DNA of 64,000 bases, taken from contig NC_089279.1 of the NCBI RefSeq assembly GCF_963678975.1, positions 23,298,004 to 23,362,003 of the forward strand, read 5' to 3'. A model generated the notes under the pieces. It saw only the letters and a list, made by a program, of their open reading frames with translations, did no database searches and was not told the origin of the DNA. Of this stretch, positions 1,435 through 44,999 are shown one piece after another (the stretch's first letter is position 1; the number at the start of each line of letters is the position of its first letter). The translations under genes were made by a program, and so were the position numbers. The DNA comes from Dysidea avara. Its lineage: Eukaryota; Porifera; Demospongiae; Dictyoceratida; Dysideidae.

Positions 1435-1716
1435 ATGGATACGAATGTGAATGAGGTCAAATACTACTACTATAACACAGTGAGGAATGAATGGGTAAGA
1501 AGAGTACATGTAATATCTAATAATTTGCTTGTTGAACATATGTAGCTTTCTTGTGACATAACTGATCCAGAAGCAAATCATCAAGGGCCTATCAACAAGT
1601 ACAGCCATTTATATTACAATTGTTTGTCAGTTGGTCGGTATCATTGTTTCTGCCAATATCATTTTACATTGCAAAATTGTCCTTATCCTGGGCATTACTT
1701 TGGCTATCGCAGGTAG
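1435..1716 (+). CDS. Small Cys/His-rich protein, YYYYN-type (two exons)
   Basis: Exon 1 is 1435-1494 and exon 2 is 1546-1716, joined by a phase-0 intron with a GTAAGA donor and a TAG acceptor, giving 76 residues. Exon 1 encodes a short acidic leader with the YYYYN motif and ends in Trp. Exon 2 carries the family core: Cys23, the HQGPINKY block, Cys46 (YYNCL), His53, Cys56 (YHCFCQYH), His59 and Cys65 (QNCP), ending GYRR. The usual CPIH is altered to CPYPGH, so the last His is displaced to residue 70. There is no signal peptide or membrane segment. The Cys/His spacing suggests zinc binding (inference). The function is unknown to me. The exon structure matches paralogues at 4818 and 22042, which is the main reason for trusting the splice sites. 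Confidence 0.85.
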
Positions 1717-2113
1717 TGACAGTTGACTTGTGGAGACACAGCTATAACTGTTGACAATTTAACAGTAATATGTAAACATATTCCTATCTTGGATAACAAT
1801 TTATGAAGCAACAGCTTTGCTGTACGTATTGTAGCTTGGTTAGTATTAACATACACTGTAACAACACAGAGAGGTACATGGTTTTAACTTGAAACAATTG
1901 ACACACCTATGAGATGCGATTAATTCTTGTGATTGTTTCCTTATGTAAACATGACGGCTTCTGTGTAACAGCACATGAATTAATATTGCATGCTAGGACT
2001 TGCATACATGCAACATGCAACATTAAACTATGCATAGATGATGAATATTTCTATACGGCAGTACGCACTGGGTAAATTACAATTTACACAAATGTACTAA
2101 AAGTGGTGAGGTA

Positions 2114-2455
2114 ATGTCCTCCAAAGGGTCAGCAGGAAAGCAGGTATTATACAATAAACACAATATGTCTCATACCAGTTACTAAATTAGCAGCATAATA
2201 AGAATACAAAACGAAAGGAAAAGGAGGTAACATTACGATATGTATAACATCCCTTATATCAGTTATTGTGTCAATTAACAGCCAAGCCTGACGTGTGAAG
2301 TGTCAAATCATCTATGTAGAGGAAGCCCCAGGAGGTATAGCCGCTCCACATATACCTGCTTAGAAGTTCGCCAATATCACACCTTTTGCACATATCACTA
2401 TGAACGAAAATATTGTCCTGTTCACTCATCTGGGTACAATCGGAATATAACATAA
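2114..2455 (+). CDS. Small Cys/His-rich protein, MSSKG-type (two exons)
   Basis: Exon 1 is 2114-2143 (MSSKGSAGKQ) and exon 2 is 2282-2455, with a phase-0 intron (GTATTA donor, CAG acceptor). The 67-residue product has a basic leader in place of the YYYYN leader. Exon 2 reads LTCEVSNH, then YTCLEVRQYHTFCTYHYERKYCPVHSSGYNR, i.e. every core Cys and His is present. This is a distinct subfamily whose only close neighbour in the window is the broken copy at 5958. It lies 400 bp downstream of the gene at 1435 on the same strand, too far for an operon; independent transcription is likely. Biochemical role is not recognised. Confidence 0.82.
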
Positions 2456-3689
2456 AGGAACAGAGTGTTGGTTGTAGTACTTTTCAAGAATGCAAATCAG
2501 CAGAACTTATAGGTAGAAGATTTTTAAATCCAAAGTGTGGATATCACTTTTGGAATTTAAATGGATGATAATTATTATTGTCAAAAGTCATTATGCACTG
2601 ATAATTATGCATTGGTATCATGTCACATGACTTTTATAGCACATGTTCATACCCAACCATCACATGTATGCCCAGCATGCATGTAATAGTTGGGTGTGTA
2701 TTTAGTAGTATGCCCAGCATGCTAAATAAACTTTTAATTAGCTGCAAATGCGTATAATAACAATTTGTAAATTGTACAGTACACCACAAACTACATATGT
2801 ACAGTTTTTCATGGAAATTAGTTTGGATATTTAAGATCACAGAACAATTGAGCAATAATTGGCTGTTTTCGTAAAACATACTTTGAATAAAACATAAGTG
2901 TACTACGCACAAAAAAATTACACATGTTTTAGTTGCTTTGGTATGCTTTGAAATAAAGTTCAAATCAGTAAAAGCTATATACCAATGGATTAAAAAGGCT
3001 GAATCTTTGGCTGTCCACTACAGTTAACAGAGAAGCAATAAAATGCAATTCCAGGAGTGTGCAAAAATGGCTCAGCCGGTCACATTTTAGAAAGCATGGC
3101 GATTGGTATCAATCTAAGAGTCAGCACTATATCAAATTTACAGCATCTAGATATTTTCTAGCTTGATACAGTAGCAACATAATAGGATTGAGAAGTGCTG
3201 AATGATCTGACAATGTTGAAGGTGTGAAACTCTTTATTCTGCTTATACAAGAACAGGCTTAGCAGCTGTATCATGCTACACTTCCTGCAACAACCCTAGC
3301 CCTGGCATTGTCTCATAGCCACAGATAAAGGATAGACTTCCATGTCAACAAATTGTCACATTTTTAATACATTGACATACTATGTCAATTGCTACTCACT
3401 CCTCAAACATGTTAAATATATCAAAAAAGATGAGGTTGTGTTTAATAACTTACATACATAGAAGATGAAACCAGAGATTATCAATTCTGTAACCAAGTAC
3501 CACAGACTGGTAAAGGTGCCGACAATAGATACTTCCTTGTTTCTCCTTATTGGCATGATAATCTACATACTGTACTTGGATGGAGTCATCAGACAGAAGA
3601 AAATCTTAGTATGGTGAAGCTAATTGATGTTCAAAATATACTGTGGGCTGTCCATTTAGACTAGTATCAATTACTACACGGCTTCCAAT
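2456..3689. other. Intergenic, no gene seen
   Basis: Frames here are short and lack the family core. From about 3590 the sequence resembles the window start (AAAATCTTAG-ATGGTGAA), showing that the duplicated upstream block extends to the left of the conserved element. Confidence 0.5.
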
Positions 3690-3960
3690 AAATAGTGAGT
3701 ACAATGGAATTTATGACAGTAATTGACTGATGTGCTTTTGTGGTTAGATGGTATGACCTATTCAAATGGAATGCACAAACAAGTTGCGGTGTATGGCAAT
3801 GGGATGGATGGATGTGTACACATTACTACCTGCCTACACTGGTAGGGAAATTTTTAAGGGAAGCACGGTTACGTACAGAAGTATAGGTCGTGTACATTAC
3901 ACAATACATGGCTTCTGTAATTGTAGTGTTTGCTGAGTCATATGAAGTAATCACTCAGTT
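3690..3960 (+). repeat. Dispersed upstream element, copy 2 of 5
   Basis: It contains the TGTGGTTAGATGGTATGACCT block and the AAGCACGGTTACGTACAGAAGTAT block, in the same order and spacing as copy 1, then a shared TAGTGTTTGCTGAGT tail. The gene at 4818 follows about 850 bp downstream. A 116-codon frame starting at 3890 runs over it but shows no family feature. Confidence 0.7.
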
Positions 3961-4164
3961 ACAGAAAAAGCTGGATTTTTCATCTAATGCATTTAGTACA
4001 ATGGATAGATTACAGCGGTATTTCCCTACATATAGATTTGTAAGGGTCATATGCCATTTTAAATACATATACATATTAGACATAGCACAGTTTACCTTTG
4101 GATGTAACAACGATATGAAAGCCTACAAAGTACTCTCTATACGCAATGCACTGAATCAGAGATA

Positions 4165-4817: not shown

Positions 4818-5092
4818 ATGGATGAAAACGTAACTGAGTGCAAATATTACTACTACAACAAAACATTGGGAGAATTGGTAAGGGTGCACAAATATTCATA
4901 GTAATGCCATTAACATTGTTACAGCTTTACTGTCAAGTGACTAACCCAGAAGCAGTTCATCAAGGGCCTATAAATAAGTATGGCAACTTATTCTACTCCT
5001 GTTTGATCAGTGGTCAAAGCCATATATTTTGCCAACGTCATTTTCGAGAACAAAATTGTCCTATTGACAGCTCGGGCTATCGAAGATTCTAA
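4818..5092 (+). CDS. Small Cys/His-rich protein, YYYYN-type (two exons)
   Basis: Exon 1 is 4818-4877 and exon 2 is 4925-5092; the 47-bp phase-0 intron has a GTAAGG donor and ACAG acceptor. The 75-residue product begins MDENVTECKYYYYN, then Cys23 (YCQVTNP), HQGPINKY, Cys46 (YSCL), His53, Cys56 (HIFCQRH), His59 and Cys65 (QNCPI), ending GYRRF. The position of the final conserved His (CPIH) is Asp68 here, so one putative zinc ligand is changed. It is otherwise nearly collinear with the genes at 1435 and 22042. No signal peptide. The function is not recognised. Confidence 0.86.
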
Positions 5093-5957: not shown

Positions 5958-6243
5958 ATGGCTTCCAAAGGGAAAACAAAGCAAGTAACAAAAGCAGTAA
6001 GTTTACGATAACAACTATATGTATCTTTGTTAAACCTGGTTCTCAAACTTGCAGCCTAAGCTAACATGTGAAGCTTCAGGACCACATTCTGGACCTGTCA
6101 GAAAATAAGGCAGAACTACTTATACATGCTTAAGCAGTGGTCAACACCATACCTTATGCCACCATCACCATCAACAAGCCAAATTGGTATGTCCAAAACA
6201 TACCCATTACTACAGAAAACGAAACAAAAAGATAATGGACTAA
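5958..6243 (+). pseudogene. Broken MSSKG-type Cys/His gene
   Basis: Exon 1 (5958-5996, MASKGKTKQ...) and exon 2 (from 6055, PKLTCEASG) align with the gene at 2114. Exon 2 meets an in-frame TAA at 6106-6108 just before the region encoding TYTCLSSGQHH. The frame stays open beyond the stop to 6243, but HTFC-type residues have become HTLCHHHH and the terminal GYxR is lost. I read it as a decaying copy; a truncated peptide of about 30 residues would lack the core. Confidence 0.75.
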
Positions 6244-7091: not shown

Positions 7092-7418
7092 ATGAGTGTT
7101 GCCGCAAAAGGTCATTCTAAGAAAAGTGCCAAGTGTGTGTATTACTACTATAACAATGATCTAGAAAAATTGGTAAGAGATTGCAATTTGTATGTATAGA
7201 CGCTTAAACAGTATACACAATGAAATAAATATAGATATATTGTGAGGTCACTGATCCAAAGCAGTATCATCAGGGGCCAATAAACCAGTATACACCCCAT
7301 CAATATCGATGCTTAAAATCAACAGAGAACCACTACTTTAATTTGTGACTATCATCACGAGAAAGCTTCGGAAGATGACAGTTGTCCAGTGCACCCTACA
7401 CTATTCCGTACATACTAG
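7092..7418 (+). pseudogene. Frameshifted YYYYN-type Cys/His gene
   Basis: Exon 1 is 7092-7172 (a longer, Lys-rich leader, then CVYYYYNNDLEKL) and exon 2 starts at 7235 after an ATAG acceptor. Exon 2 reads YCEVTD, YHQGPINQY, YRCL and NHYF. About four extra bases near 7340-7343 (AATT) then throw it out of frame and it stops at TGA 7346-7348. The sequence after the shift still encodes CDYHHEKASEDDSCPVHP and an RTY ending at 7416-7418 in the other frame, so the lesion is recent. An assembly error or a rare allele is an alternative. Confidence 0.78.
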
Positions 7419-8508: not shown

Positions 8509-9023
8509 ATGGCAGGGGCAGGAAAGTGAGTCACACATCTACAAGTACATAGCAATAACTACACAATGCTATAAATAGGTGTGAGCACTTTGACTGTCAA
8601 ATTTATGCTGTGACAAGGTACAACCATACCTAGTATAGCTGTCTTACAGAGGGAAATTATCACTACTATTGTGAGAAGCATGGAAATGAGCTAGGATGCA
8701 TATTACATTACAATAAAGGAGACGGTGTGAGGTGAACGGGTGTGATTGATAAGCTGGAAGATATGCACATTATTACTATGACTGTTTGGAAGAGTCAGAG
8801 CATCATTTCTTCTGTAAGAAGCATGGAAATCAATTAGAATGCTCAGTACATGAGGATATGTGAAGTACGTGGATGCTATGGCCAAGCTGGAAAGTATCCA
8901 CACTACCACTATGATTGTTTACAACAAACGGAATATCATTTCTACTGCAAAGCACACTATGGCATGCTTAATTGCCCTTCTCATCCACATGGTCGCCGTA
9001 GGCTGTACAGACCACCAAGATGA
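8509..9023 (+). pseudogene. Degraded three-unit Cys/His gene
   Basis: A 17-nt exon 1 at 8509-8525 (MAGAGK, GTGAGT donor) joins exon 2 at 8579 in the same phase as the gene at 30113. Exon 2 encodes three successive Cys/His units: CEHFDC...YSCLTEGNYHYYCEKH (8580-8700), YYDCLEESEHHFFCKKH (about 8760-8860), and CEVRGCYGQAG...YDCLQQTEYHFYCKAHYGMLNCPSHPHGRRR (8860-9023). A TAG at 8631-8633 and frame changes between units disrupt it. The third unit alone is intact. It is the only three-unit member seen; the relatives at 12744 and 30113 have two units. Confidence 0.72.
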
Positions 9024-11861: not shown

Positions 11862-12152
11862 ATGGCATCACCGCGGGAGCAACCACCACAGCAATTCAGG
11901 GTAAGCAAACTTGCAAGTTTAACAGTGTGGATATTCAAGAATTCTACTTACATATACGTATAGCAATGTGAAGTAAACCAGAAAGGTTCTAAAATGGTGC
12001 CAGATCAACACTGCAGTGGAGAAGTCAAAAGATTTAACCACACTAAATATGCTTGCCTTAGTCACGGAGGTCCAGATAAGCACCATGACTTCTGCAAAAG
12101 GCACCATGAATTGTACTGGTGTCCTATCCATGCCTGTGGCTATAAAACGTGA
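11862..12152 (+). CDS. Small Cys/His-rich protein, divergent single-unit (two exons)
   Basis: Exon 1 is 11862-11900 (MASPREQPPQQFR) and exon 2 is 11964-12152, with a phase-0 intron (GTAAGC donor, TATAG acceptor), giving 75 residues. Exon 2 begins QCEVNQKG and then has a longer linker with an extra Cys (DQHCSGE) before YACLSHGG, HHDFCKRHH, WCPIHACGYKT. All core residues are present and one extra Cys precedes Gly-Tyr near the end (HACGY). The leader is Pro/Gln-rich instead of Tyr-rich. Divergence suggests a separate subfamily. No known domain recognised. Confidence 0.8.
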
Positions 12153-12743: not shown

Positions 12744-13114
12744 ATGGCTTCTCAATATTATTGGTAAGCAAATGAAACTGATAATTCCTACATATAAGTA
12801 ATATACATCCTACTTGCAGGTGTGGTGTTAATAACTGTAACAACATTGCAAATTGGGTCTATACCAGCATACATTACAGTTGCCTTGCAATTGGAGAAAA
12901 GCATTATTTTTGCAATGAACATGCAGAGAGGGTTACTTGTCCTATGCATCCACGTTCTGGGAGACGATTATGTGAAGTATATGGGTGTACTAATGGTGCC
13001 AAAAAGTATGCCGGAAGAAATTGGAATTGTCCAGTAAATTATCATTTCTTTTGTGAGTATCACGCTGAACTTGGAAACTGCCCAATTCACACGGCTGGCT
13101 ACAGAAGGTATTGA
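12744..13114 (+). CDS. Two-unit Cys/His-rich protein (two exons)
   Basis: Exon 1 is 12744-12763 (MASQYYW, the Trp codon split by the intron) and exon 2 is 12820-13114, giving 104 residues. This is a phase-2 intron, unlike the phase-0 introns of single-unit genes. Two consecutive units are seen: unit 1 has CGVNNC, YSCLAIGEKHYFCNEH, TCPMHP; unit 2 has CEVYGC, NYHFFCEYHAELGNCPIHTAGYRRY. Each starts with a Cys pair separated by four residues. In unit 2 the usual YxCL becomes NWNCPV. The tandem units imply intragenic duplication. No signal peptide; a small cytosolic or nuclear zinc-binding protein is plausible (inference). Confidence 0.85.
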
Positions 13115-13782: not shown

Positions 13783-14030
13783 ATGGCTCTTCCAACCAAT
13801 GTATTTGTTAATGTACAAGATGGGCAGAAAGGCTATATTACCATTGATGAGGTAAGTATAGGATACCACTATCTGTGCAAAAAGTAAGGGAGAAGTTTTC
13901 TAGCTTAAGCAGGCAGTACTTCAGATTAGTGAAAGGCAGCCAAGAACTCTCCCCAGATCGCAAAGACGAAATAGTAGATTTTAGTGTAGGAGGTCAGATA
14001 CAAGTTTTATTTAGAGTGTCTGGAGGATGA
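13783..14030 (+). pseudogene. Broken ubiquitin-like protein gene ending in Gly-Gly
   Basis: The first exon (13783-13851) encodes MALPTNVFVNVQDGQKGYIT-IDE, a beta-hairpin-like start as in the intact gene at 15302. The intron appears collapsed: GTAAGTATAG (10 bases) directly abuts GATACCACTATCTGTG, the start of the second exon. Next to it about eight bases corresponding to AACTGTAT of the 15302 gene are missing, shifting the frame. Beyond the lesion the frame encodes VREKFSSLSRQYFRL, QELSPD and ends VLFRVSGG followed directly by TGA. The exposed terminal Gly-Gly would be mature without processing. Confidence 0.75.
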
Positions 14031-15301: not shown

Positions 15302-15615
15302 ATGGAATTTCTGAATCAATTTAGTGTACTTGTTACCATAACTGATGGACTAAAAGCTTACATCAAAGCAACAGAGGTAAGAATATATATTAGCTCTATA
15401 TAAGCTACATACAGTAATTCCATGGTTTATCATAGGATTCTACTGTTTGTGAACTGTATCAAAAAGTAAGAGAAAAGTTTCCCAAGTTGAGTGAACACTA
15501 CTTTAGGCTTTGTGATGGAACTAAAGAATATTCTCCTGACTATGGACAACAGCAAGTACATCTCAGCAATGGTGGCCAATTATATGTGTTATTTAGGAAT
15601 CGTGGAGGAACATGA
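15302..15615 (+). CDS. Ubiquitin-like protein with C-terminal Gly-Gly (two exons)
   Basis: Exon 1 is 15302-15376 and exon 2 is 15436-15615, with a phase-0 intron (GTAAGA donor, CATAG acceptor), giving 84 residues. The fold pattern follows ubiquitin: a first strand pair (FSVLVTITDG-LKAYIKATE, residues 7-25), then DSTVCELYQKVREKFPKLS resembling the DTIENVKAKI helix, HYFRLCDGTKEYSPD resembling QRLIFAGKQLEDG, and a last strand QLYVLFRNRGG followed by one Thr. The Gly-Gly plus a one-residue tail matches precursors of conjugated ubiquitin-like modifiers, which need a C-terminal hydrolase before activation. There is no equivalent of ubiquitin Lys48 or Lys63 that I can assign with certainty. It is a single-domain protein, not a polyubiquitin or a fusion. 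Conjugation is inferred from the C terminus only. Confidence 0.85.
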
Positions 15616-17069: not shown

Positions 17070-17302
17070 ATGGAGGAAGCTGAAGAACTAGTAATGGTGA
17101 GGATTTTATGTTAGATTTATTTGCTTAGTACCACTTAACATTACAGTGTGACTGCTGTACTACCATCTACAATCTAGTGGAATACTACAGCAACTTCTGG
17201 TGTTTGGACCCAGATGAATTACACATTTTCTGTATTGACTGCTTCATACCATATGATGGTGCAACCTGCCCTATCCATTCTAATAGTTTCTATGACAACT
17301 AG
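17070..17302 (+). CDS. Small Cys-rich protein, CDCC-type, copy A
   Basis: Exon 1 is 17070-17096 (MEEAEELVM) and exon 2 is 17147-17302, with a phase-0 intron (GTGAGG donor, TACAG acceptor), giving 60 residues. The acidic leader is followed at once by CDCCTTIYNL, then FWCLDPDELHIFCIDCFIPYDGATCPIHSN. Compared with the family core, the first Cys is part of a CxCC cluster, Y-x-C-L is W-C-L-D, and the FCxYH His is replaced by Cys (FCIDC). The CPIH signature is kept. This subfamily could coordinate metal mainly through Cys. The 26633 copy is nearly identical, with few substitutions, suggesting constraint or recent duplication. AATAAA lies about 120 bp downstream (17424). Confidence 0.83.
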
Positions 17303-22041: not shown

Positions 22042-22325
22042 ATGGCTGAGAGTTCAGAAGAAGTTGAATATTATTACTTTAATCAAGGATGGCAAGAATG
22101 GGTAAGAAATAATAAGCCTTTGAAGACCTTCAGTCATATCATGTATTTACAAAACAGTACTACTGTCAAGTAACTAATCCTGCAGCATTTCACCGTGGAC
22201 CAATCAAAAAGTATAGCAGCAGATATTACTCTTGTTTGCTCAGTGGTCAGTATCATTATTTTTGTCAATATCATTTTGAAAGACAAAATTGTCCTGTTCA
22301 TGCCTTTGGATATCGTAGGATATAA
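22042..22325 (+). CDS. Small Cys/His-rich protein, YYYYN-type (archetype)
   Basis: Exon 1 is 22042-22101 (MAESSEEVEYYYFNQGWQEW) and exon 2 is 22158-22325, joined by a 56-bp phase-0 intron (GTAAGA donor, AACAG acceptor), giving 75 residues. It shows every family residue in its usual place: Cys23 (YCQVTNP), HRGPIKKY, Cys46 (YSCL), His53, Cys56 and His59 (YHYFCQYH), Cys65 and His68 (NCPVH), GYRRI. I use it as the reference for scoring the others. Seven candidate ligands could hold one zinc ion with extra residues, or more than one with partners; this is inference. It lacks a signal peptide or membrane helix. Confidence 0.88.
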
Positions 22326-24477: not shown

Positions 24478-24711
24478 ATGGACAGACACCAAAACGGGGT
24501 AAGAAATCCAAATCAAATCATGCTCTTATATTTTTCCAATACGTAGCTTCAATGCCAAGTTCCAAACTGCTCTTCATATGGGACAACTGTTTTACAATAC
24601 AGTAGAACAGTATATTCTTGCTTAAGCCAAGGATGCTATCATGTCTTCTGCCGAGAACATAATGTACTAAGGAACTGTCCAGTTCATTATGATGGATATC
24701 AAAGAAACTAG
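24478..24711 (+). CDS. Small Cys/His-rich protein, short leader (two exons)
   Basis: Exon 1 is only 21 nt (24478-24498, MDRHQNG) and exon 2 is 24547-24711, phase-0 intron (GTAAGA donor, CGTAG acceptor), giving 61 residues. Exon 2 reads LQCQVPNCSSYG, YSRTVYSCLSQGCYHVFCREHN, LRNCPVHYDGYQRN. The CQVPNC pair and the ending YDGYQRN match the gene at 33732 (CQVQNC, YYGYRRN), its probable counterpart in the second block. The leader has lost the Tyr-rich motif. An extra Cys lies in the QGCYH turn. The acceptor assignment rests on that paralogue; an upstream alternative exon is possible. Confidence 0.75.
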
Positions 24712-25011
24712 CCAGAAGACAGAGATTATTTTGTATCATTCATACAAACCCACAAACCTTATTTATCATGGATAGAAACTGTCAATAATGTCTACTGCAC
24801 CTTTCTATAATAGCTCTATATAGCGACTGTTGTATGCTACTATTATTAATAGGAATGGCCACTGAGTACAGGTGTTCGTAATCAAGCAATTTTATACGAT
24901 ACCACAAATATGCTATCGCTCACATGATATCACACCATCAGAAAAATCAATATAAATTAATACACCAAACAATTGCATATATACGTATGTCAAGCGTTAT
25001 CAAAAGATATT

Positions 25012-25198
25012 ATGGGAAAGCATAGATACTATTACTATAACAAAGTATGGAACAAATGGGAATAAAAATACCAGTTGTCCTATTAATTTTACTAGCAGAT
25101 ACTACTCTTGTGGTGGTTGTTACCATTGTTTCCGTCAGTATCATTTTGAGCAGCAACGTTGTCATATTCACTTAAGTGGCTACCATAGACTTGATTAG
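25012..25198 (+). pseudogene. Deleted YYYYN-type Cys/His gene
   Basis: Exon 1 (25012-25059, MGKHRYYYYNKVWNKW) is intact but the donor is GAATAA instead of GTAAGN. The intron and the 5' part of exon 2, including the first Cys, are absent. The remainder encodes RYYSCGGCYHCFRQYHFEQQRCHIHLSGYHRLD, where FCQYH has become FRQYH and CPIH has become CHIH. Multiple changes at conserved sites indicate a dead copy. AATAAA is near 25332. Confidence 0.82.
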
Positions 25199-26632: not shown

Positions 26633-26865
26633 ATGGAAGAAGTTGAAGAACTAGTAGTGGTAAGAATTTTATGATATACTCGCTTGTTTTATAGCACCTA
26701 ACACTACAGTGTGACTACTGTGCCACCATCTACAATCTAGTGGAATACTACAGCAACTTCTGGTGTTTGGACCCAGACGAATTCCACATTTTCTGTATTG
26801 ACTGCTTCATACCATATGATGGTGCAACTTGCCCTATCCATTCTAACAATTTCTATGACAACTAG
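26633..26865 (+). CDS. Small Cys-rich protein, CDCC-type, copy B
   Basis: Exon 1 is 26633-26659 (MEEVEELVV) and exon 2 is 26710-26865, phase-0 intron (GTAAGA donor, TACAG acceptor), giving 60 residues. It differs from the 17070 product at only a few residues: CDCC becomes CDYC, T to A, L to F in DEFH, and S to N near the end. The loss of one Cys in the N-terminal cluster shows that this third Cys is not essential to the fold, if both are functional. WCLDPDE, FCIDCF and TCPIHSN are kept. Confidence 0.83.
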
Positions 26866-29301: not shown

Positions 29302-29859
29302 ATGTCTTCACAAAAACTGACAAATCATCAGGTTAGATGACTCATTACCAAACATGTTATAACAGGTAATTCATTGTGTAGTATTTCTTTAATCTCTGTG
29401 TTATTTTACAATAGCAAGAAGTCACTAACAATAATGTATACCAACTACAACCTACAGATCTTCCTAATAATGTAAGTATGACACAAAACTTTAAAGTAAT
29501 TCAGTAAAATTTCTACAGGCAAAAGTGACCAACCACACTATCAGTCACAGAAATGTAGTTGAAATTGTTCACAATGATCTTGACAAACCAGTAAGTGTTA
29601 CTGTAACATGCACACTGTTTGCTACATCTCTAAAATTAGACTTTGTGTGTCATTCACTGTACATTCTTCTTGTTCACAGCGTAAGAAGTGTGATGTAAAT
29701 GATGGGAACTGTGATGCAGATGTTAAGACGTATGGTTTCGCACACTTCAACTGTTTATCAACTGAGCCTGGCCAACAAAGAACTCATAACTTTTGTAACT
29801 ATCATTTTAAAAATGCATCATATTGTCCAATTCATCCAACATTTAACAGAATTTTATGA
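29302..29859 (+). CDS. Four-exon Cys/His-rich protein, copy B
   Basis: Exons are 29302-29331 (MSSQKLTNHQ), 29415-29471, 29519-29590 and 29680-29859, all phase 0, giving 112 residues. The Asn/Gln-rich N-terminal 53 residues have diverged from the 20597 copy while keeping exon lengths of 30, 57 and 72 nt exactly. That indicates selection on frame. The last exon is KKCDVNDGNCDADV, HFNCLSTEPGQQRTHNFCNYHFKNASYCPIHPTFNRIL, almost identical in its last 25 residues to the other copy. The core has two early Cys eight residues apart. AATAAA follows at about 29896. Function not recognised. Confidence 0.85.
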
Positions 29860-30112: not shown

Positions 30113-30487
30113 ATGAGCGAAAGGAGACCGCCAAGGTAAGTGTACACATGTGCTACATAGTATACATGAAACAATATGTACAGAAAGAAGTGCCAAGTTC
30201 CTGAATGTGACCGATATGATATAATTCCTTATGATCACATGTACTACACTTGTCTTGATGATGAAAGAGATTATCATTATTTCTGTGAATATCATGCAAA
30301 AGAGCTGAATTGTCCTATACATCAAAAAGGCCAAAAGAATTGTGAGGCAATGCATTGTGAAAGTATGGCTAAAAAGTACACCAGGACTACATACACCTGT
30401 CTAGAGATATCTGAGTATCATTTCTTTTGTGATGAACACCACAGCACTGTAAACTGTCAAATTCATCACACTGAATATAAACGATGA
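30113..30487 (+). CDS. Two-unit Cys/His-rich protein (two exons)
   Basis: Exon 1 is 30113-30135 (MSERRPP plus a split Arg codon) and exon 2 is 30184-30487; the phase-2 intron has a GTAAGT donor and ACAG acceptor, giving 108 residues. Unit 1 is CQVPECDRYD, YYTCLDDERDYHYFCEYHAKELNCPIHQKG; unit 2 is CEAMHCES, YTCLEISEYHFFCDEHHSTVNCQIHHTEYKR. Both units retain all ligands, each with an early C-x(4)-C pair. The same phase-2 intron in the 12744 gene and in the broken 8509 gene marks the multi-unit genes as one lineage. The leader is Arg/Pro-rich and basic. No signal peptide. Confidence 0.87.
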
Positions 30488-30699: not shown

Positions 30700-30974
30700 A
30701 TGAGCACCAGGTATTACTTCTATTATGAGAAAGGATAAACAAATTGGTAAGATGACATAACCAAAGTGTTATGATATATGCATGGTTTTGATAGCTATGG
30801 TGTGAAGTAACCAGTGCCGCTCAATATCACCTCCATGATGGACCAGTTAGAAGACACACTAGTCCCCAATACCAATGTTTAGAGCAAGGTCATTATCACA
30901 TGTTTTGTGATTACCATCATGAAATAGCACGGCAATATTGTCCAGTTCACCTTTTCTCTTACCGTACATATTAG
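30700..30974 (+). pseudogene. Cys/His gene with single-base frameshift in exon 1
   Basis: Exon 1 (30700-30746) starts MSTRYYFYYEKG and then hits TAA at 30736-30738; one missing base explains this, since the other frame gives INKL just before the GTAAGA donor, as in relatives. Exon 2 (30795-30974) is fully intact: LWCEVTSAAQYH, HTSPQYQCLEQGHYHMFCDYHHEIARQYCPVHLFSYRTY. It is the nearest relative of the gene at 38642. The perfect exon 2 makes a very recent lesion, a rare allele or an assembly error likely. Confidence 0.75.
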
Positions 30975-31596: not shown

Positions 31597-31915
31597 TTAT
31601 ATCCCTCCAAGCATTGGAAAAGTCACAAAGATACTAGCACCATTGTTCAGACTGTGTCTCCCTTCATCAAGGCGTTGATTACTATCATCTGGTGAAAAAT
31701 CTTTTGTTCCACTGCAGAGCCTGAAATTGTACTTACTGAGTTCTGGAAGTCATTCCCTCATTTTTCCATATAAGTCACAAACTGTTGCATCCTACATGAT
31801 ACAAAAAAAATTTACACTGCACAAAATATTAACATAGCTTACTTACACTTTGCATAATCAGTATAACAGTCTGCTTTCCTGGAACTTGAACAAATATATT
31901 CCACATAGATGCCAT
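31597..31915 (-). pseudogene. Ubiquitin-like protein gene with one nonsense codon
   Basis: On the minus strand exon 1 is 31915-31847 (MASMWNIFVQVPGKQTVILI-MQS) and exon 2 is 31791-31597, exactly the same exon lengths as the gene at 23551 (69 and 195 nt). The sequence DATVCDLYGKMRE is followed by TGA (forward 31752-31750) where the paralogue has an Arg codon. The frame continues LPELSKYNFRLCSGTKDFSPDDS and ends FVTFPMLGGI and stop. A single CGA-to-TGA change would account for the stop. All else is intact, including Gly-Gly plus one residue. Confidence 0.8.
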
Positions 31916-32498: not shown

Positions 32499-32761
32499 AT
32501 GGCAGAACAAAGATACATTACTTACAATGAATGGGAAAAAACGGTAAGAGAACATAAATGACAATCAAACTGTTCTAATATTTGTGTGATAAACAGTTGT
32601 TCTGTCAAGCACCTGACAACTGTCATTACGGACCTGTTAAACAGTACAGTAGCAGATTCTACTCTTGTATGACGAGTGGATATTACCACTTCTACTGCAC
32701 ACATCATTTTAGACAGCGAAATTGCCCATGTCATTATTGGGGCTACCGTAGGTTTGATTAA
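32499..32761 (+). CDS. Small Cys/His-rich protein (two exons)
   Basis: Exon 1 is 32499-32543 (MAEQRYITYNEWEKT) and exon 2 is 32597-32761, phase-0 intron (GTAAGA donor, AACAG acceptor), giving 69 residues. Candidate ligands are Cys18 and Cys24 (CQAPDNC), Cys39 (YSCM), His46, Cys49 (YHFYC), His52, Cys58 and His61 (NCPCH), ending GYRRFD. The extra Cys in CPCH (residue 60) is unusual. The leader keeps a YxxYNxW echo of the YYYYN motif. AATAAA lies at about 32861. Function not recognised. Confidence 0.86.
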
Positions 32762-33128: not shown

Positions 33129-33286
33129 TGGGGAGCTGTAAAAAAACATACAAGTCCGCAATATCATGCACTGTTTAGAGAAAGGCCAGTATCACCAATT
33201 GTGTTTACCACCAATTGTGTTTACCACCATGAAAAAGCACTAAAAACACATGTCCTATCCATTCTTCTTTCTCCAATACATACTAG
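33129..33286 (+). pseudogene. Fragment of a 38642-like Cys/His exon
   Basis: ACAAGTCCGCAATATCATGC, TTAGAGAAAGGCCAGTATCACC, TACCACCATGAAAAAGC and CATGTCCTATCCATTC pieces align with exon 2 of the gene at 38642. The frame is lost at several places and a 17-bp piece (ACCAATTGTGTTTACCA) is doubled. It ends with an AATACATACTAG like the 30700 copy. No 5' part is recognisable. Confidence 0.68.
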
Positions 33287-33731: not shown

Positions 33732-33993
33732 ATGGAGAACTGGATTTATCAGTACAATGCACCGCAGCAACAGTGGGTAAGCACAGCGTGAAATAAATTA
33801 ATATCAATGTTAAGTGGTATGCATTTATTTAAAATAGTTTATCTGCCAAGTTCAAAACTGCAATATTGGAGGAAATGCTTATAGTGGGATGATATACTCA
33901 TGCTTGGAACGAGGACAGTATCATTACTTTTGCCAGTATCACTATAGGCAAAGGAACTGTCCAATACACTACTATGGATATAGAAGAAACTAG
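33732..33993 (+). CDS. Small Cys/His-rich protein (two exons)
   Basis: Exon 1 is 33732-33776 (MENWIYQYNAPQQQW) and exon 2 is 33838-33993, phase-0 intron (GTAAGC donor, AATAG acceptor), giving 66 residues. It reads ICQVQNCNIGG, YSCLERGQYHYFCQYHYRQRNCPIHYYGYRRN with all core ligands and an early Cys pair. It is the counterpart of the gene at 24478. The duplicated block that reappears at 39475 begins at the very end of this gene: the TAGCCAGCAGACA sequence at its stop codon is repeated there without the coding part. Confidence 0.87.
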
Positions 33994-36744
33994 CCAGCAG
34001 ACAAAAGTATAAAGTATACTCTATGCAACTACATTCTTACCTTTTTGTACATATAAAGTTGTAAATAATGCTTCATGATTGTATACTACACTACTACTTA
34101 AAGTAATAAGACTATTTCATTCACTAAAATCTTGTCACAAAACACACTACCACTCCTAGCAGTAACAATCACTGACTAGTTGCACAAAGGAAGTAAGGTA
34201 CCACAAAAATGCAGTTAGTCACACAATAAGGCAATCATAAAAGTACAGTATTTAACTGCCACTTGAAATTTAATGAGCAGATGCACTGCATAAAGTTAGT
34301 CAGAGAGAAAGTAAATATAAAATGACCTGACCTGGTCTATGTACATACAAAGGTATTGTACTTCACCAACATGCACAAACACATACTGAATCTGATATAC
34401 TGTAGGTATTACACTTTCTGTATTTACTGCACATACAACAACAAAATATTAAAGTGATGGAATATAACCATCAAGTATAAGTACCTTATGTCAGTGATGA
34501 ACAAACAGCATTTGAAGAAAAGTTGACAAACTGCGAAGGCATTATCTATGCCATGTATCTCAAGTTTAAAGTTGTCTTGGCTCCAAATGATAGACAATTC
34601 CTACACAATAACAACCATATAAAGAACAAACTGTAATAGCTAAACTATGTAGATTCTAAAATGGTAATACAAATGCAACAGAACAGTTAAGCACACTTAA
34701 GCCTTTTAGATATGTAACAATTTGATAATAAAATGATAGCAAATTACTGCAATTATACTTAGGAAGAAAGGACTATTCTGATATGAGTTCACTAGTTATG
34801 TGTAATGTATAAGCCGGTAAGCACACAGATATCAAAAGCACAAATTACAAACCAAAGGCGTGTACTATTACGCATTAAAGGTGTGGTTTACAGATTACTT
34901 CATATCATGTGCAGACAAGAATCAACCACAATAATTAATTCCCCACACAATTGTACAAAACACATTTTTGTCTAACTGTACGGCACAACTAACTGTATGA
35001 TACAGCTATCAGTCCGATAAAAGCATGGGTAATAGACTCCAGGTATTATACAAACAATGTGTAGTCATGTGCATTGTAATTAGTTTGGTTTAAAATTTTT
35101 ATTGCAAGTATGATCATTTTTAGTGTGAGGTATGTGGCACAGAAGATGAGACAGTCCAGGAGTACAATGCTGCTATTTATAGTTGCCTAGTGTAGGTGAT
35201 ACTAATGCACCATTTGACCAAGGTATCATGTTTTCTGCAGTGTTCGCTTCAACCTAGATAACTGTCCAGTACATGCTACTGGTTATAAGTTAGAATAAGT
35301 CTAATAGAACACACTTTAGAGCTTATAATTGTATTTCATATGTCATTATAATCACTATAGCTTGCAAACCTATGAATGTATGATATAAAAATACAAAGTA
35401 TGGTTGGTTGATACATATGTATACACAATAAAAAGGAATGTGACAACTAGAAAGGCTTATTTTCTATTCTACATAGTATCTAGGAATTAGAAAACTTTAC
35501 CTATTAGCTGAGATTACACATACATTCTAATACAACATACAGGCAAGATCGATGTCAAATCACATGCATGAAGCATCCTCCATTTGGAGTGATTATTACT
35601 ATTATATATGTAGATGGTAAAGACTAGTTGTAGTCTTATACATGCATATGATTATAGTAATGAAACAGTAATGTGTACAAAACATTAGATACCAACAAGT
35701 ACATATGTAGCAAGTAAGAAGACATTGAAGCAACAACTACAGCATAATACAGTTCAGTTACCAATGAGTATTTGTGCGCTGTTCCAGTAACACTTACAGA
35801 AGACAACACAGTATATATGTCCAACTTGCTTGCACTTGCCAAGAAATACTACTACCATACCTTAACACTGCAAACAAGGGATAAATTACAGCACATGTCT
35901 CTGTACTGTCAAACAAGAGGTACACACGGACCTCCTTTGACATTTCACTGAAAAATTCCAGAATAGCAAGTACTACCACTATGCTATATAATGTGGAACC
36001 GTTATACACACATGCTAAATTTTACACAAGTGTTACGCTATACGTATATTCCGTGCTTACTAAACATAATAAAAATGCTCAAGAGATCAATTATCTTGTA
36101 CAACACACAGTTTGTCATCAAGTAATTACATACAAGTAGCATACGAAGGAAATTTGAGGCATTCTGCAATGATGTATATGCCATCACATCAAGTTCAATG
36201 TTATCTTGGCTCCACACAATAGAATATTTGCAATACTAACCAAAAACGTTTCTACAAAGAATGACCTATTATAGTGTAGTTCTACAAAGAATGATTTGTT
36301 GTAAGCAGCTAAATCAGATAATGACAACAAGCACAAGTCGACCCGTGTGGTGATGTAACAATTCAATGACAGCAAAGTACAGCAATTATAGAAGAAAGGC
36401 CTACACAGATCTCAACAACAATCACAAATCATAGGCATATGCTACAGTATCAGTTAAAGGTGTAGTTTACAGATTAGTTCACATCATGTGACAGACAACA
36501 ATTAACCACAACAATTAAGTGCACATGCAGTTGTATAAAATGCTTTCAGCTGACAGTATCGGCACAATTATCAATACGGTAAAATCATGGGAAGTTGATG
36601 GTCCGCTGTAAAACTTACAATCAACCAGGTACATAATGTGTAGATTGATGTTTGGGCTTAGACATTCTATTGCAAATGTGAATAGCTAATCCAACTTTAG
36701 TGTGAGGTATGCAACACAGAAGATGGGACAGTCAGGGTGTACAA
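33985..36744 (+). repeat. Segmental duplication, left copy
   Basis: The block from the 33732 stop codon to the middle of the second MGN-type gene recurs at 39475-42036. Shared blocks include TACATATAAAGTTGTAAATAATG, GGAAGTAAGGTACCACAAAAATGCAGTT, AAGGTGTGGTTTACAGATT and the two gene pairs. Inside it, the MGN-type gene plus about 500 bp upstream is itself doubled (34380-35300 and 36060-36870). Confidence 0.75.
35025..35298 (+). pseudogene. Broken MGN-type Cys/His gene
   Basis: Exon 1 is 35025-35042 (MGNRLQ) and exon 2 starts at 35124 with CEVCGTEDETVQEYNAAIYSCLV, then TAG at 35193-35195. Compared with GTGTGGGATACT of the intact gene at 40374, this copy has GTGTAGGTGATACT, a two-base insertion creating the stop. 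Downstream the Cys/His stretch is also altered (TGCAGTGTTCGC where TGCAATGATCAC is expected). AATAAA is at about 35428. Confidence 0.8.
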
Positions 36745-36871
36745 TGCTGCTACTTATAGTTACCTAGTGTGGGATACTAGTCAGCCACTTACAAGAAGAT
36801 ATCATGTTTTCTGCAATGATCACTATAGCAAACAGAACTGTCCTGTACACAGTACTGGTTATAAAAAATAG
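36587..36871 (+). pseudogene. MGN-type Cys/His gene with stop in exon 1
   Basis: Exon 1 (36587-36628) reads MGS then TGA at 36596-36598, where the sister copy at 41907 has TGG (MGSWWSAVKLTINQ). Exon 2 (36701-36871) is open: CEVCNTEDGTVRVYNAATYSYLVWDTSQ, RYHVFCNDHYSKQNCPVHSTGYKK. One core Cys is lost (YSYLV for YSCLV). Two independent defects suggest loss of function. AATAAA is near 37008. Confidence 0.8.
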
Positions 36872-37019
36872 AACATGCAAACTTAACAGATGAATTATAT
36901 GTTGATATCATAATCACTGTACGTATCTTGTAATGCATGCATGGTGTACATACCAATGCAGATGGCAATCAAGTTTTGTTGACATCATATACACTCTAAT
37001 AAAACACACAATAAATTGT

Positions 37020-38034: not shown

Positions 38035-38322
38035 TAATAACAATAAATACTTAGGTTTAAAGGAAGAAAATCCGTCCCTCCTGGAGGAGACTGAGTGTGG
38101 TGTTCGACTAGACATTGAGTGACCTGCAGTTCAAATCCTGGGATAGGAGGGATTTTTTTCCTTTCTTTGGCCCTTTTCTGTTTCACCTTATTGTTAGCTA
38201 CTGTAGTTTAAGTAATCATTTAGAGTCTCTAGTTCTTGTTAGGTTAGGTAATCCAAAGGCTGCAGCACATGTTGCTGTCAGACCTTCAGTGCTGGTCACT
38301 GTAAAGTGCTAATAACAATAAC
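38035..38322 (+). mobile_element. Second SINE-like family, third copy
   Basis: The head GAGACTGAGTGTGGTGTTCGACTAGACATTGAGTGACCTGCAGTTCAAATCCTGGG has an RNA polymerase III B-box-like GTTCAAATCC. The body and the AACAATA tail match 18960-19260. Confidence 0.72.
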
Positions 38323-38641: not shown

Positions 38642-38939
38642 ATGACTTACCCATTTTATGAAACCTACAATGTAACGCTACGCCGAATGGTAAGGTAATT
38701 AATCATAGATAAGATTTATCATATTTGTTGCCATCTACATACATGCACATATGCAGCTTCGCTGTGAAGTAACTAGTGCAGCAGAATACTATAATCATGA
38801 AGGGGAAGTAAGGAGACACACAAGTCCACAATACCGATGTTTAGAGAGAGGCCACTATCACTACTTTTGTGAATACCACCATGAACAAGCACTACTAACA
38901 TCTTGTCCTATTCATAGATCGTATGCCCGTGTATTCTAG
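38642..38939 (+). CDS. Small Cys/His-rich protein, TSPQY-type (two exons)
   Basis: Exon 1 is 38642-38689 (MTYPFYETYNVTLRRM) and exon 2 is 38757-38939, phase-0 intron (GTAAGG donor, TGCAG acceptor), giving 76 residues. Exon 2 reads LRCEVTSAAEYYNHEGEV, RRHTSPQYRCLERGHYHYFCEYHHEQALLTSCPIHRSYARVF. The spacing between FCEYH and SCPIH is longer than in the YYYYN type, and the ending is SYARVF, not GYRR. The same features appear in the broken 30700 copy and the 33129 fragment, so these form a subfamily with only one intact member here. Confidence 0.86.
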
Positions 38940-39474: not shown

Positions 39475-42036
39475 GCCAGCAGACAGAACTCTAAGAGTCA
39501 AATTTTATAACTGTATTCTTACCTCGTGTACATATAAAGTTGTAAATAATGGTTCAAGTTCCATACTACACTGTACACTAACATTATTTAAAGTAAGAAA
39601 CTTACACTACCACTTGTAAGAACAATAATTACCGACTAGTTATACAAAGGAAGTAAGGTACCACAAAAATGCAGTTGGTCGCACAATATGGCAATAATAA
39701 AAAGTACAGTATTCAATTATTATATACTACAAACTTTGAATCTACTTAGTAGAATGTACTACAGAGCAAGTGATTAAAAATGACTACATTTAGGAATATT
39801 TACATAGGAGTTGTACTTACTATACATATATTAAACACGCTGAATCTGACAAAGGTGTTACACTACAGGGGGCTACTACAAAATGATATATAAACATACA
39901 TATATACACACAGAGCGTTTATCAAGTAAGTACCTTATGTCAGTCATGAACAAGAAGTATATGAAGGAGGAAGTTGAGGAACTGTGAAGCACTGTCCATG
40001 CCATATCACATCAAGACTTGGCTTCACATAATCAGCCAAAAATGTTTCTACAAAGAATGAACTGCTGTTAGCTAAACTAGATTCTGAAATAATCATACAA
40101 ATAAGCACAAGTCCATGGGATGTAATAATCTTACGACAAAATGATAGCAAAATACTGTAAAGCTGAGGAAGAACTACTTTGTACATAAGTACACATAGGC
40201 CTCAAGCACAAACCAAACAAAGGCATGTGCCAGTACACACCAAAGGTGTGGTTTACAGATAGTTTTATATCATGTGACAGACAATAACTAACCACAATAA
40301 TAAATTCCGCACACAATTGTACAAAACACATTCTTAACTGATTGCACGGCACAACTATCAGTAAAATAACATCATGGGTAATTGTGGATCAACTCGACAA
40401 CTCCAGGTACAAGCAATGTGTAGTTATGTAGAATTAGGATTAAAATTTATTACAATTGTGAATAAATGATCAATTTTTAGTGTGAGGTATGTGGCACAGA
40501 AGATGAGACAGTGAAGGTGTACAATGCTTCTACTTATACATGCTTAGTGTGGGATACTAACGAACCATTTAGAAATAGATATCACATTTTCTGCAATGAT
40601 CACTACAACCTAGATAACTGTCCAGTACATTCTACTGGTTATAAACGTTAGAGCAAATCTAATAGAACACACTTCAGAGCTTATATGTTTCTTATGTCAT
40701 TATAATCACTATAGCTTGCAAACCTATGTATGTATGATATAGAAAGTATGGTTGGTTGATATGTATACACAATAAAAGGACATGTGATATCTAGACAGGC
40801 TTATTTTCTACATAGTAATTAGCTAGCAATTAGACAACTTCACCTATTTGCTGAGATTACACATATATTCTAATACAACATACAGGCAAGATTGATAACC
40901 ACAAGATTTTCAAATCACATTCATGAAGCATCCTCGATTATTACTATCATAATTATGTAGATGTTTAAGTAGTCTCACATATATATGTTCTACAACAGTT
41001 ATAGTGCTGGAACAGTAATGTGTACAGATTCCAACAAGTACATACGTACTACGTAGCAAGAAGACAACAAAGAAACAAATCCAGTGTAACACTATTCAGT
41101 CATCAATAAGTATATGAGCACCATTTCTGTAACATTTACAGAAGAAAACACAGCATAAATATCCAATTTGCTTGAACTAGCCAAGAAATACTACCACTAA
41201 CTTAATACTGCAATCAAATACAGTACACTGTCAAATGAGAGGTGCACATGTACCACCTACCTTAGACCTTCCACTGAAAATTTCAGAATAGCAAGTGTGT
41301 ACACTATGTTATATAATGTAGAAACTTACATACTTTACCAGTATATACACATGCCAAATCTGATACAGCTGTCATGTATACATTCTGCATTTACTATACA
41401 TAAGAGATCGATTATCCTTGTATAACACCCAGTTTGCCATCAAATAATTACATACAAGCAGCATATGAAGGAAATTTGTGGTATTCTGCAATTGATGTAT
41501 ATGCCATTACATCAAGTTCAATGTTGTCTTGGCTCCACACAACAGAATATTTGCAACACTAATCAAAACCATTTCTACAAAGAATGACCTGTTATAGTGT
41601 AGTTCTACAATGATCTGTTGTTAGTAGCTAAACCAGATTCTAAAATGGTAACGGCAACAAGCACAAGCCTACCCATGTGGTGAAGCAACAATTCAATGAC
41701 AGCAAACTACTGCAATTATAGAAGAAAGGTCTCAACAACAATCACAAATCATAGACATATGCTACAGTATCAATTAAAGGTGTAGTTTACAGATTACTTC
41801 ACATCATGTGACAGACAATAATTAACCACAACAATTAAGTGCACATGTAGTTTTATGAAATGCTCTCAGCTGACAGTATCAGCACAATTATCACTACGGT
41901 AAAATCATGGGTAGTTGGTGGTCAGCTGTAAAGCTTACAATCAACCAGGTACATAATGTGTAGATTGATGCTTGGGCTTAGACATTCTATTGCAAATGTG
42001 AATAGCTAATCCAATTTTAGTGCGAGGTATGCGGCA
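39475..42036 (+). repeat. Segmental duplication, right copy (truncated)
   Basis: It is the counterpart of 33985-36744. Its left end is TAGCCAGCAGACAG at the former stop codon of a 33732-like gene. Its right end is inside exon 2 of the MGN-type gene at 41907, where a rearrangement breakpoint falls. Confidence 0.75.
40374..40651 (+). CDS. Small Cys/His-rich protein, MGN/CxxC-type (only intact member)
   Basis: Exon 1 is 40374-40406 (MGNCGSTRQLQ) and exon 2 is 40481-40651, phase-0 intron (GTACAA donor, TTTAG acceptor), giving 67 residues. Exon 2 starts directly with CEVCGTEDETVKVYNA, then YTCLVWDTN, NRYHIFCNDHYNLDNCPVHSTGYKR. The early CxxC plus the downstream C, H, C, H, C, H set is a richer zinc-ligand set than in the other subfamilies. 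The start is MGNC; an N-terminal Gly after Met removal resembles a myristoylation context, which is only a suggestion. Three sister copies (35025, 36587, 41907) are broken. AATAAA at about 40771. Confidence 0.87.
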
Positions 42037-43240: not shown

Positions 43241-43260
43241 CAAAAACTAAACAATCTAGT

Positions 43261-43498
43261 AAATTTAAAAATGAAGTAGGAATCCAAGCAATAAAAAGTA
43301 GTGAAACAAGAGATGAACAATGGTAGCTATTACAGTATAGCTCAGTGGGAAATCCCTACTTTGGCATGGTATAACAATTATTTTGTGTTCAGTGCCAAAG
43401 TAGGGATCTCCCACTGAGCTATACTGTAATAGCTACCATTGTTCATCTCTTGTTTCACTACTTTTTATCGCTTGGATTCCTACTTCATTTTTAAATTT
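43261..43498. mobile_element. Foldback element with 106-bp arms
   Basis: The left arm 43261-43366 and the right arm 43393-43498 are near-perfect reverse complements around a 26-base loop. The ends read AAATTTAAAAATGAAGTAGG. A single diverged arm lies at about 49747-49840 (AATTTAAAAATGAAGTAGTGATCCAAGCAATAAAAAGTAGTG). No coding capacity. Confidence 0.85.
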
Positions 43499-43614
43499 AT
43501 ACGTTTTAATATACTATTGTTTCCATATGCACTCTTATAGTACGCCTGATTGACTGTAAAAGATTTTTGATGATCTACCAACGATGTAATCTGCTTGCTG
43601 CTCAACAAGTGTAA

Positions 43615-44557
43615 CTGTACAATGTGGCATGAAGACATATGACAGGCAGAATTAACTTCCTGCGTCAAACCATACTGTTTATGCAGACTACAACTACTAT
43701 AATTGCATGCTTGCATGTTCAGACTTACATATGCACACTTGGAGCTTTGATTTAGAAATACAATTAACGGGAAAAAACTGTTGCAAGTTATCGTACTGAT
43801 ATGGTTTTGTAACCTGAGCACGCAATAATCAAGTGATCTGGTTTACTGTCAGATTGTATAGCAGAACTTATAACTTTGGAAGTTTTAGAATAATTGTACT
43901 TAGCATTAAAATTGAATTCTGCAGTCATCTGTTGCTGTGATATCATATGCCGCATTCAGCCATCAGTATAGCCTGCTGTGATCTATATTTTTATGGTAGT
44001 TTTATAAAAAAAATTTGTAGTACGTATATGTATGTTATATTATGCAAACCCTGTAGTCTTGCATGACTGCACTGTTATTTTTGCTTCATGTTTGCTACAT
44101 GGCAACATGTTTCTTCAACATTTATAATAATTTTGTTATATGTCTAGATCATCATGATGTAAATTAATTATTTCTGTTTCTGTACTGCCTTGATACTATC
44201 CATTCATAAACATGGTGATTACCCAAGGGGCAAGCTTATTCTTCCAATGTACAATCCTTTCCCTGTGTGTTTTATTAGAGTGTATATGCATCTCAGCAAA
44301 ACTTGATTCTATGTTACTGCAAGCCCCATAGGACAAGGTTACATATAGTAAGAAAATTTGCCAAACTAGTGTATATATACCATTATCTACATATGGTAGA
44401 TATTTATGTTATATTTGCAAGCTCTATTTTTTATAACCAGTACTGTGTACAGGACAGTTCTGTTTTTTGTAGTGATCATTGCAGAAAACATGATATCTTC
44501 TTGTAAGTGGCTGACTAGTATCCCACACTAGGCAACTATAGGTAAAAGCATTCAATG
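43615..44557 (-). repeat. Inverted segmental duplication of 36745-37670
   Basis: Reverse-complement matches run along the whole stretch, for example CAATAATCAAGTGATCTGGTTTACTGTCAGAT (43824) against ATCTGACAGTAAACCAGATCACTTGATTATTG (37414). It ends at 44557 within a Cys/His exon fragment. With 39475-42036 it makes a complete second copy of the block 33985-37670, with its last third flipped. Confidence 0.8.
44424..44557 (-). pseudogene. 3' part of an MGN-type Cys/His exon (inverted fragment)
   Basis: On the minus strand this encodes YSCLVWDTSQPLTRRYHVFC, NDHYKKQNCPVHSTGYKK and a TAG stop (forward 44424-44426). It closely matches exon 2 of the 36587 copy but keeps the core Cys that copy has lost. 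It is probably the detached end of the gene at 41907; the 25-30 nt joining them are missing. Confidence 0.78.
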
Positions 44558-44725
44558 GTTTGATTATACATCATAAACTGGAATTTCCCGACAAAAAAGC
44601 TAAAATGTTATCAAATCAATGGTCAGGGAAAGATAACAAAATATAAAATCAGAGATATAGCACACCTATACTATATAGGACATATACGTTAAGAACACAA
44701 CAAAAACCACTGTTTAGAATAACCA

Positions 44726-44999
44726 ATGGCTGAGGCTAATTATCGCTACCACAGTTCCGCTGGTGATGAATGGGTAAGCATACACGTGTACACTTGTGAT
44801 ACATGGATATACATCTGTTGTATTTAACACACAAACTCTCCTGTGAAGTAACCAATTCAAATGAGTATCACTCTGGAACAGTCAATTGGTACAGCAGAAC
44901 GAACTACCAGTGTTTGAGCTATGGCCAATACCACAGATTCTGTCAGTATCATTCTTAACAAAACAACTGCCACATTCATTCTGTTGGATACCAATACTA
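44726..44999 (+). pseudogene. Broken YYYYN-type Cys/His gene
   Basis: Exon 1 is 44726-44773 (MAEANYRYHSSAGDEW, good GTAAGC donor). The expected acceptor before LSCEVTNSNEYHSG is ACACAAA where relatives have ACAG, so the AG is lost. Exon 2 (from 44836) then reads YSRTNYQCLSYGQYHRFCQYHS and stops at TAA 44956-44958, one codon before QNNCHIHSVGYQY. Two independent lesions and an altered CHIH mark it as dead. It is the last member of the cluster. Confidence 0.8.

Follow-up and report, generated by a model that had tools for sequence, protein, structure and literature searches.

The 64,000-nucleotide stretch analyzed here from the genome of the demosponge Dysidea avara (Dictyoceratida) (the window; C8:23298004-23362003, on a chromosome, C8, of 37,586,944 bases) contains a tandem cluster of small genes for a putative zinc-binding domain rich in cysteine and histidine (the zinc family) and, interleaved with them, a second small family with likeness to ubiquitin (Table 1). 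By hand we count 26 zinc-motif loci in the window: one (44427-44570) lies on the minus strand and the other 25 lie on the plus strand. Seventeen of the 26 are intact, the domain frame being open and the ligand set complete: 16 match a strict pattern of seven ligands, and the seventeenth, 4838, carries Asp in place of the last His. The other nine (6034, 7235, the 8509-9020 array, 24956, 33142, 35124, 36701, 44427 and 44800) are broken, fragmentary or missing one ligand. These counts agree, within counting rules, with a preliminary description of the window, which had listed 25 loci plus two fragments, 16 of them intact, mostly on the plus strand, and had placed the start of the cluster at 1435, where exon 1 of the first gene has its ATG. 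Some loci are cited by a position inside the gene: 4838 (in 4818), 12785 (12744), 17129 (17070), 20992 (20597), 22116 (22042), 26695 (26633), 29584 (29302) and 40481 (40374).

Among the open frames of the window, 31 domain pieces score at E<=0.01 against a profile derived mostly from copies in the window itself, and the same profile finds none in the reversed window and none in each of five dinucleotide shuffles; because it was trained on pieces from the window, the zeros in the null sequences are the informative part. A scrap at 38322 (E 2.7) is no better than chance. With a six-frame scan and the iterated profile, the motif is found again where it was first described, between 1435 and 44999, and the cluster is seen to extend beyond the left edge of the window: it begins about 13.5 kb further left, where 11 more zinc loci lie, for a total of 37 loci, broken ones included, across 58 kb. 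Outside the cluster, no zinc locus was found at E<=0.01 in the 324 kb examined (140 kb to the left, the window and 120 kb to the right). In searches of the whole genome (550.8 Mb), where the counts are lower bounds, query 22116 gave 39 matches at E<=1, 36 of them within C8:23284551-23342997, with a further pair at C8:23.638-23.641 Mb and a single match on chromosome C7; of the ten matches of query 20992, eight are in the cluster and the remaining two are that same pair; and every match of queries 17129 (3/3) and 40481 (18/18) lies in the cluster.

The consensus of the domain is C-x-[VI]...[C/H]...Y-x-C-L...[YT]-H-x-F-C-x2-[H/C]...C-P-[IV]-[H/D], with four invariant positions and six others nearly so. 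The eight candidate ligands are, in order, C, C/H, C, H, C, H/C, C and H/D. Seven are found by pattern in 19 of 21 window domains tested, and the eighth in 17 of these 19, the exceptions (24547 and 40481) having a Cys that lies beyond the allowed gap.

Zinc genes typically open with an exon of 6-20 codons, which a short intron separates from a single domain exon. In our splice models, which are based on consensus scoring and comparison of paralogues, the intron is mostly 47-67 bp long and usually of phase 0, the 8509, 12744 and 30113 models having phase 1. The second-ranked model was chosen for 17070 and 40374 because paralogues share it, and exon 1 is uncertain for 2114, 29302, 30795 and 36701. 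A KYYYYN-like motif occurs in exon 1 of 1435, 4818, 7092 and 22042, at or near six residues before the splice site. One window gene agrees with the NCBI model P0003 (uncharacterized protein, Dysidea avara), whose type has about four coding pieces, and some of the initial pieces are seen again in the 29302 copy. Exon 1 of 40374 (MGNCGSTRQLQ, 40374-40406) begins with a candidate signal for N-myristoylation (at Gly2) and palmitoylation, which suggests that proteins of this subfamily may be membrane-tethered. No shared upstream motif emerged from an 8-mer enrichment over the 450 bp before 26 domain exons, where one AT-rich word occurred in at least six.

The second family, which the preliminary description did not mention and whose interleaving with the zinc genes is new here, was found by an all-against-all comparison of reading frames. 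It comprises four loci, two intact and two broken, and all four copies end in Gly-Gly followed by at most one residue. When compared by hhalign with four ubiquitin-family sequences, the alignment is collinear from the first strand to the end, with Gly-Gly placed over Gly-Gly: an eight-row alignment covers 75 columns at E 2.5e-5 (probability 75, about 17% identity), and a four-row alignment gives E 5.2e-4, its score of 24.0 exceeding the maximum of 15.2 in 100 shuffles. Once spliced, the two intact proteins have three Pfam matches, each far below its cut-off: UN_NPL4 (E 0.077), Dsc3_N (E 0.14) and Sde2_N_Ubi (E 0.22), all of them ubiquitin-like families. Exon 2 alone has no Pfam match. The likeness to ubiquitin, NEDD8, ISG15 and FUBI thus spans the full length, with the Gly-Gly aligned, and the last units of polyubiquitin likewise carry a one-residue tail; the cluster proteins differ from these modifiers in their low identity, their two-exon sponge gene and scores beneath every Pfam cut-off. 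Throughout the genome, the four significant matches of the ubiquitin-like exon all lie within the zinc cluster, a region making up 0.0106% of the genome, and two weak matches (E 0.17 and 0.58), whose Gly-Gly is followed by two residues, lie 10 Mb away on the same chromosome. A homologue search with the protein returned the window's own exon and no named protein.

Compared pairwise, both families show constraint at the protein level. In ten pairs of zinc domains the ratio of nonsynonymous to synonymous substitution rates (dN/dS) is 0.17-0.56, three more pairs giving no ratio since dS is saturated. The lowest values are those of 20992/29584 (0.17), 17129/26695 (0.19) and 30795/38709 (0.21), and the values near 0.5 come from pairs with 36701, 40481 and 44427, the first and last of these three copies being damaged. 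For the ubiquitin-like genes, two of three pairs were computable, with dN/dS of 0.25 and 0.31, the latter for the two intact copies. All zinc pairs that gave a ratio have dN/dS below 1, which leaves the role as genes in conflict, put forward for the cluster at the outset, conjectural.

In the second half of the zinc domain, the H-x-F-C-x2-[HC] and C-P-x-[H/D] blocks correspond, in register, to ligands H4/C5/C6/C7/C8 of the RING finger (C3HC4). In a comparison with a profile of six RING domains, this block scores 17.9 over 22 columns, and 100 column-shuffled controls reach at most 15.1. Two residues beyond the first Cys, 17 of 20 rows have Val or Ile, at a position that is hydrophobic in RING fingers too, and Pro follows the seventh ligand in at least 90% of rows; both are positions at which RINGs contact the ubiquitin-conjugating enzyme (E2). 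The C-P-[IV]-D ending of 4838 and three left-flank copies is also that of TRAF6.

A conjugation module is suggested because this RING-like half, which would face an E2, adjoins genes for ubiquitin-like proteins with Gly-Gly ends. Our tentative reading, to which we give a probability of about 0.35, is that the zinc proteins are minimal adaptors, or proteins akin to ubiquitin ligases (E3), that work with the cluster's ubiquitin-like modifiers, perhaps in defence. If expressed, they would be very small and probably intracellular, with little beyond one, or sometimes two, domains of a zinc-binding type, in which the eight ligands probably hold two zinc ions in a RING-like cross-brace. Their task would be to deliver an E2, loaded with either ubiquitin or the ubiquitin-like protein encoded in the cluster, to a variety of targets, and the diversification of the zinc family would mirror changes in these targets, for example microbial or viral proteins. 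A stronger form, in which the cluster is a self-contained tagging module that supplies its own Gly-Gly modifiers together with dozens of one-domain zinc specificity factors as an intracellular defence repertoire, seems to us rather unlikely. The readings considered here and below overlap, and our degrees of confidence in them are not meant to total one.

Several observations weigh against the conjugation reading, both those given here on the identity of the domain and those given with the alternatives below on its surroundings; its weak joints are that the RING match is partial and that the co-location may go back to one founder and local duplication. RING fingers have eight ligands spaced as C-x2-C...C-x(1-3)-H-x(2-3)-C-x2-C...C-x2-C. 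In the zinc family, the gap between C3 and H4 is 4-11 in the 17 pattern-matched domains (13 by eye in 40481), and that between C1 and the second ligand is 2-13 as the pattern scores it, both outside this rule; the family also differs in having His at ligands 6 and 8 and a short gap between ligands 6 and 7. No RING family of Pfam is matched above cut-off, the best curated RING profile being zf-RING_6 (E 0.2, in one of 20 members). Searches of Pfam, NCBIfam and PDB sequences gave no significant match to the domain, and the best Pfam E-values (0.022-0.025) belong to zf-FPG_IleRS and PHDvar_NSD, not to RING; matches to a ChiA1 chitin-binding domain (E 1) and a thioesterase (E 0.36) were dismissed as chance. 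The preliminary description of an unrecognized small Cys/His family is borne out by these searches, which it had proposed as a check and which yielded no clear match to a described domain family.

Structure prediction, also proposed there, gave a confident AlphaFold model for the 22116 domain (25 alignment rows; predicted local distance difference test, pLDDT, 93.6; predicted template modelling score, pTM, 0.73). This model has no neighbour in PDB: its one Foldseek match there has E 7.5 and is not a RING. RING, B-box and PHD chains are absent from the matches listed for this model by Foldseek and VIA, which does not exclude such folds, and a library of viral structures gave six matches, the best at E 4.7. 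For the most diverged subfamily, the model is less confident (pLDDT 73.6), with two strands similarly placed, and its Foldseek matches are weak ones to ZZ/FYVE and other domains. From its sequence, the domain is best described as RING-like in its second half and not a RING by the spacing rule. This upholds, for that half and above 100 of 100 shuffles, the distant RING-like look noted earlier, which the spacing rule and the curated profiles do not support. The B-box look noted with it is not borne out: the end of the domain follows the spacing C-x2-[CH]-x5-[CH]-x2-H of the B-box rule, but the profile score of 10.1 against three B-boxes lies within the range of 100 shuffles, which reach 15.8, and a Pfam scan of 20 members found no B-box family. 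B-box membership was therefore rejected.

The zinc proteins may instead be non-enzymatic adaptors or decoys, serving as protein-protein or ubiquitin-reader modules in intracellular defence with no E3 activity. This alternative, which we regard as somewhat unlikely, is consistent with tiny single-domain proteins that have variable short N-termini and no effector domain, with the many broken copies, and with the weak likeness of the less confident model to the ZZ reader domain of p62. Nucleic-acid binding is common among small Cys/His domains, and the family could also consist of small DNA- or RNA-binding regulators or of relics of a transposase DNA-binding domain. CxC6 (PF18721), a domain tied to KDZ transposases, is indeed matched below threshold by three of 20 members (best E 0.12) and by two of five in another set (E 0.053 and 0.13). 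However, the best of these, 14.2 bits, is far under the Pfam cut-off of 27.5, so that membership was rejected; the mobile-element matches among eight window frames scanned with Pfam are a reverse transcriptase and a Tc5-type fragment, with no KDZ transposase; and the family is essentially one undispersed cluster, all of which makes such a role improbable.

The co-location itself may be an accident of one old insertion and subsequent local duplication, the two families being functionally unrelated, and to this we give about the weight that we give to the conjugation reading. Collinear duplicated stretches hold both families (16722-20620/26272-29325, 21194/29683, 23250-23631/31604-31996 and 24611/33893), and all four ubiquitin-like copies may be local duplicates of a single founder, in which case the co-location may count as one event. 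The 11 left-flank zinc loci include no ubiquitin-like copy, and the remote ubiquitin-like relatives (C8 33.2 and 33.4 Mb) have no zinc match nearby in the whole-genome zinc searches. Against an accident, two ubiquitin-like copies, one on each strand, retain their frames and splice sites under the constraint given above, among many broken copies. Secretion of some members as Cys/His-rich proteins is suggested by hydrophobic frames that, in the 20992 subfamily, immediately precede the domain (in P0004 as predicted and in one scored model of 29584). However, the duplicates 20992 and 29584 have little of these stretches in common, while their domain exon is conserved, and for this reason we read them as translated T-rich intron; no hydrophobic leader is seen by eye in the first exons of the other zinc models, and we consider secretion very unlikely.

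Eight distinct proteins were recovered at E<=1 by profile searches of 5.8 billion proteins. Two of them, P0001 and P0003, are encoded in the window itself and P0005 in its left flank, P0002 is identical to 20992 at 55 of 57 positions, and P0004, P0007, P0008 and P0009, which may come from sponges, are diverged from the cluster copies. A tree was built from 55 columns of 38 domain sequences; of its 35 inner branches, 14 are well supported and 14 are drawn open. It joins the two domains of P0008, with high support, to the domain pair of the 12785 gene and places P0004 within the 20992 subfamily. P0007 and P0009 group by their first domains with the first domains of 30170 and of a left-flank gene; the second P0007 domain has no resolved position. 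The subfamilies are thus probably older than at least one species split, and because some are common to other sources, the expansion is not purely a species-specific burst. Within the genome, a second small zinc group of the 20992 subfamily lies about 280-300 kb to the right (2589-5143 of L028, C8:23.638-23.641 Mb), with upstream exon pieces similar to those of the P0003 type. The solitary copy on C7 (2535-2693 of L027) lies about 1 kb downstream of a protein-kinase frame (538-1521); a kinase-zinc fusion was considered, and nothing shows one.

Large immune gene families, including an expansion of NLR genes, have been described in the chromosome-level genome of Dysidea avara (PMC12909245), in the main text of which the words zinc, RING, TRIM and tandem do not occur. 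The zinc family resembles these NLR expansions in being a large family of the same genome and differs from them in that the members scanned with Pfam contain no NACHT, LRR, CARD, Death or TIR domain. We found no description of either the zinc or the ubiquitin-like family among the papers listed by searches on the Dysidea avara genome, on zinc or B-box families of sponges and on ubiquitin-like and RING clusters of Porifera or invertebrates, in a library with few subscription journals. If the conjugation reading is correct, early-branching animals would own a modular ubiquitin-like system in which the specificity factors have shrunk to a zinc domain of 55 residues and multiplied in tandem; such a system would be far simpler in design than TRIM or cullin ligases, and innate immunity in sponges could be sought in a new place. 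Whatever the mechanism, an undescribed animal domain family beside ubiquitin-like genes is a concrete gap in annotation.

Table 1. Features of the cluster and its surroundings (window coordinates unless marked C8)
Feature	Position	Strand	Remarks
Zinc gene	1435..1716	+	Exon 1 1435-1494 (MDTNVNEVKYYYYNTVRNEW), intron 51 bp, domain exon 1546-1716
Zinc gene	2114..2455	+	Domain exon from ~2282; exon 1 uncertain
Zinc gene	4818..5092	+	Exon 1 4818-4877; last ligand Asp, not His
Broken zinc copy	5958..6240	+	In-frame stop
Broken zinc copy	7092..7415	+	Frame shift
Array of three zinc domains	8509..9023	+	First and second disrupted, third open
Zinc gene	11862..12152	+	MASPREQPPQQFR-exon junction-QCEV...
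Two-domain zinc gene	12744..13114	+	Relative: P0008
Ubiquitin-like, broken	13783..14030	+	Ends ...FRVSGG
Ubiquitin-like, intact	15302..15615	+	Exon 1 15302-15376, exon 2 15436-15615; ends ...RNRGGT
Zinc gene, CDCC/FCIDC subfamily	17070..17302	+	Second-ranked splice model, common to its duplicate
Zinc gene, NCBI P0003	20597..21372	+	Pieces 20597-20626, 20683-20736, 20809-20883, ~21181-21372
Zinc gene	22042..22325	+	MAESSEEVEYYYFNQGWQEW-exon junction-YYCQ...; domain modelled with AlphaFold
Ubiquitin-like, intact	23246..23551	-	Exon 1 23551-23483, exon 2 23437-23246; ends ...PAHGGV
Zinc gene	24478..24711	+	Splice model
Degenerate zinc copy	24956..25198	+	Profile match
Zinc gene	26633..26865	+	Duplicate of 17070
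Zinc gene	29302..29859	+	Duplicate of 20597; choice of exon 1 uncertain
Two-domain zinc gene	30113..30487	+	MSERRPP-exon junction-RKKCQV...
Zinc domain exon	30795..30974	+	No confident exon 1
Ubiquitin-like, broken	31600..31915	-	In-frame TGA; ends ...PMLGGI
Zinc gene	32499..32761	+	Splice model
Broken zinc copy	33142..33286	+	Profile match
Zinc gene	33732..33993	+	Splice model
Broken zinc copy	35025..35298	+	Frame shift
Zinc copy	36701..36871	+	Third ligand lost (Cys to Tyr); exon 1 uncertain
Zinc gene	38642..38939	+	Splice model
Zinc gene	40374..40651	+	MGNCGSTRQLQ-exon junction-CEVCG...; second-ranked splice model
Zinc copy, 5'-truncated	44427..44570	-	Profile match
Zinc copy	44800..44997	+	Truncated by stop; last plus-strand locus
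Tc5-type transposase DNA-binding fragment	45663-46046	-	Right of cluster (Pfam)
31-bp minisatellite	47708-48306		CTCTCTACAGGGTGATTTCTTTGTAGCTGAA, ~19 copies
Reverse transcriptase open reading frame	51049-52383	+	Right of cluster (Pfam); long interspersed nuclear element type by eye
Remote ubiquitin-like relative L030	C8:33215196		Ends ...TTKGGTA
Remote ubiquitin-like relative L029	C8:33426630		Ends ...TTKGGTI

No tRNA and no Rfam family was found in the window. About 96-137 kb to its left (L012-L016) lies a separate tandem family, with six frames of 173-296 residues that share SLVPGKLVELEYSQRVV...ISTFDGKTLIDTGPF.

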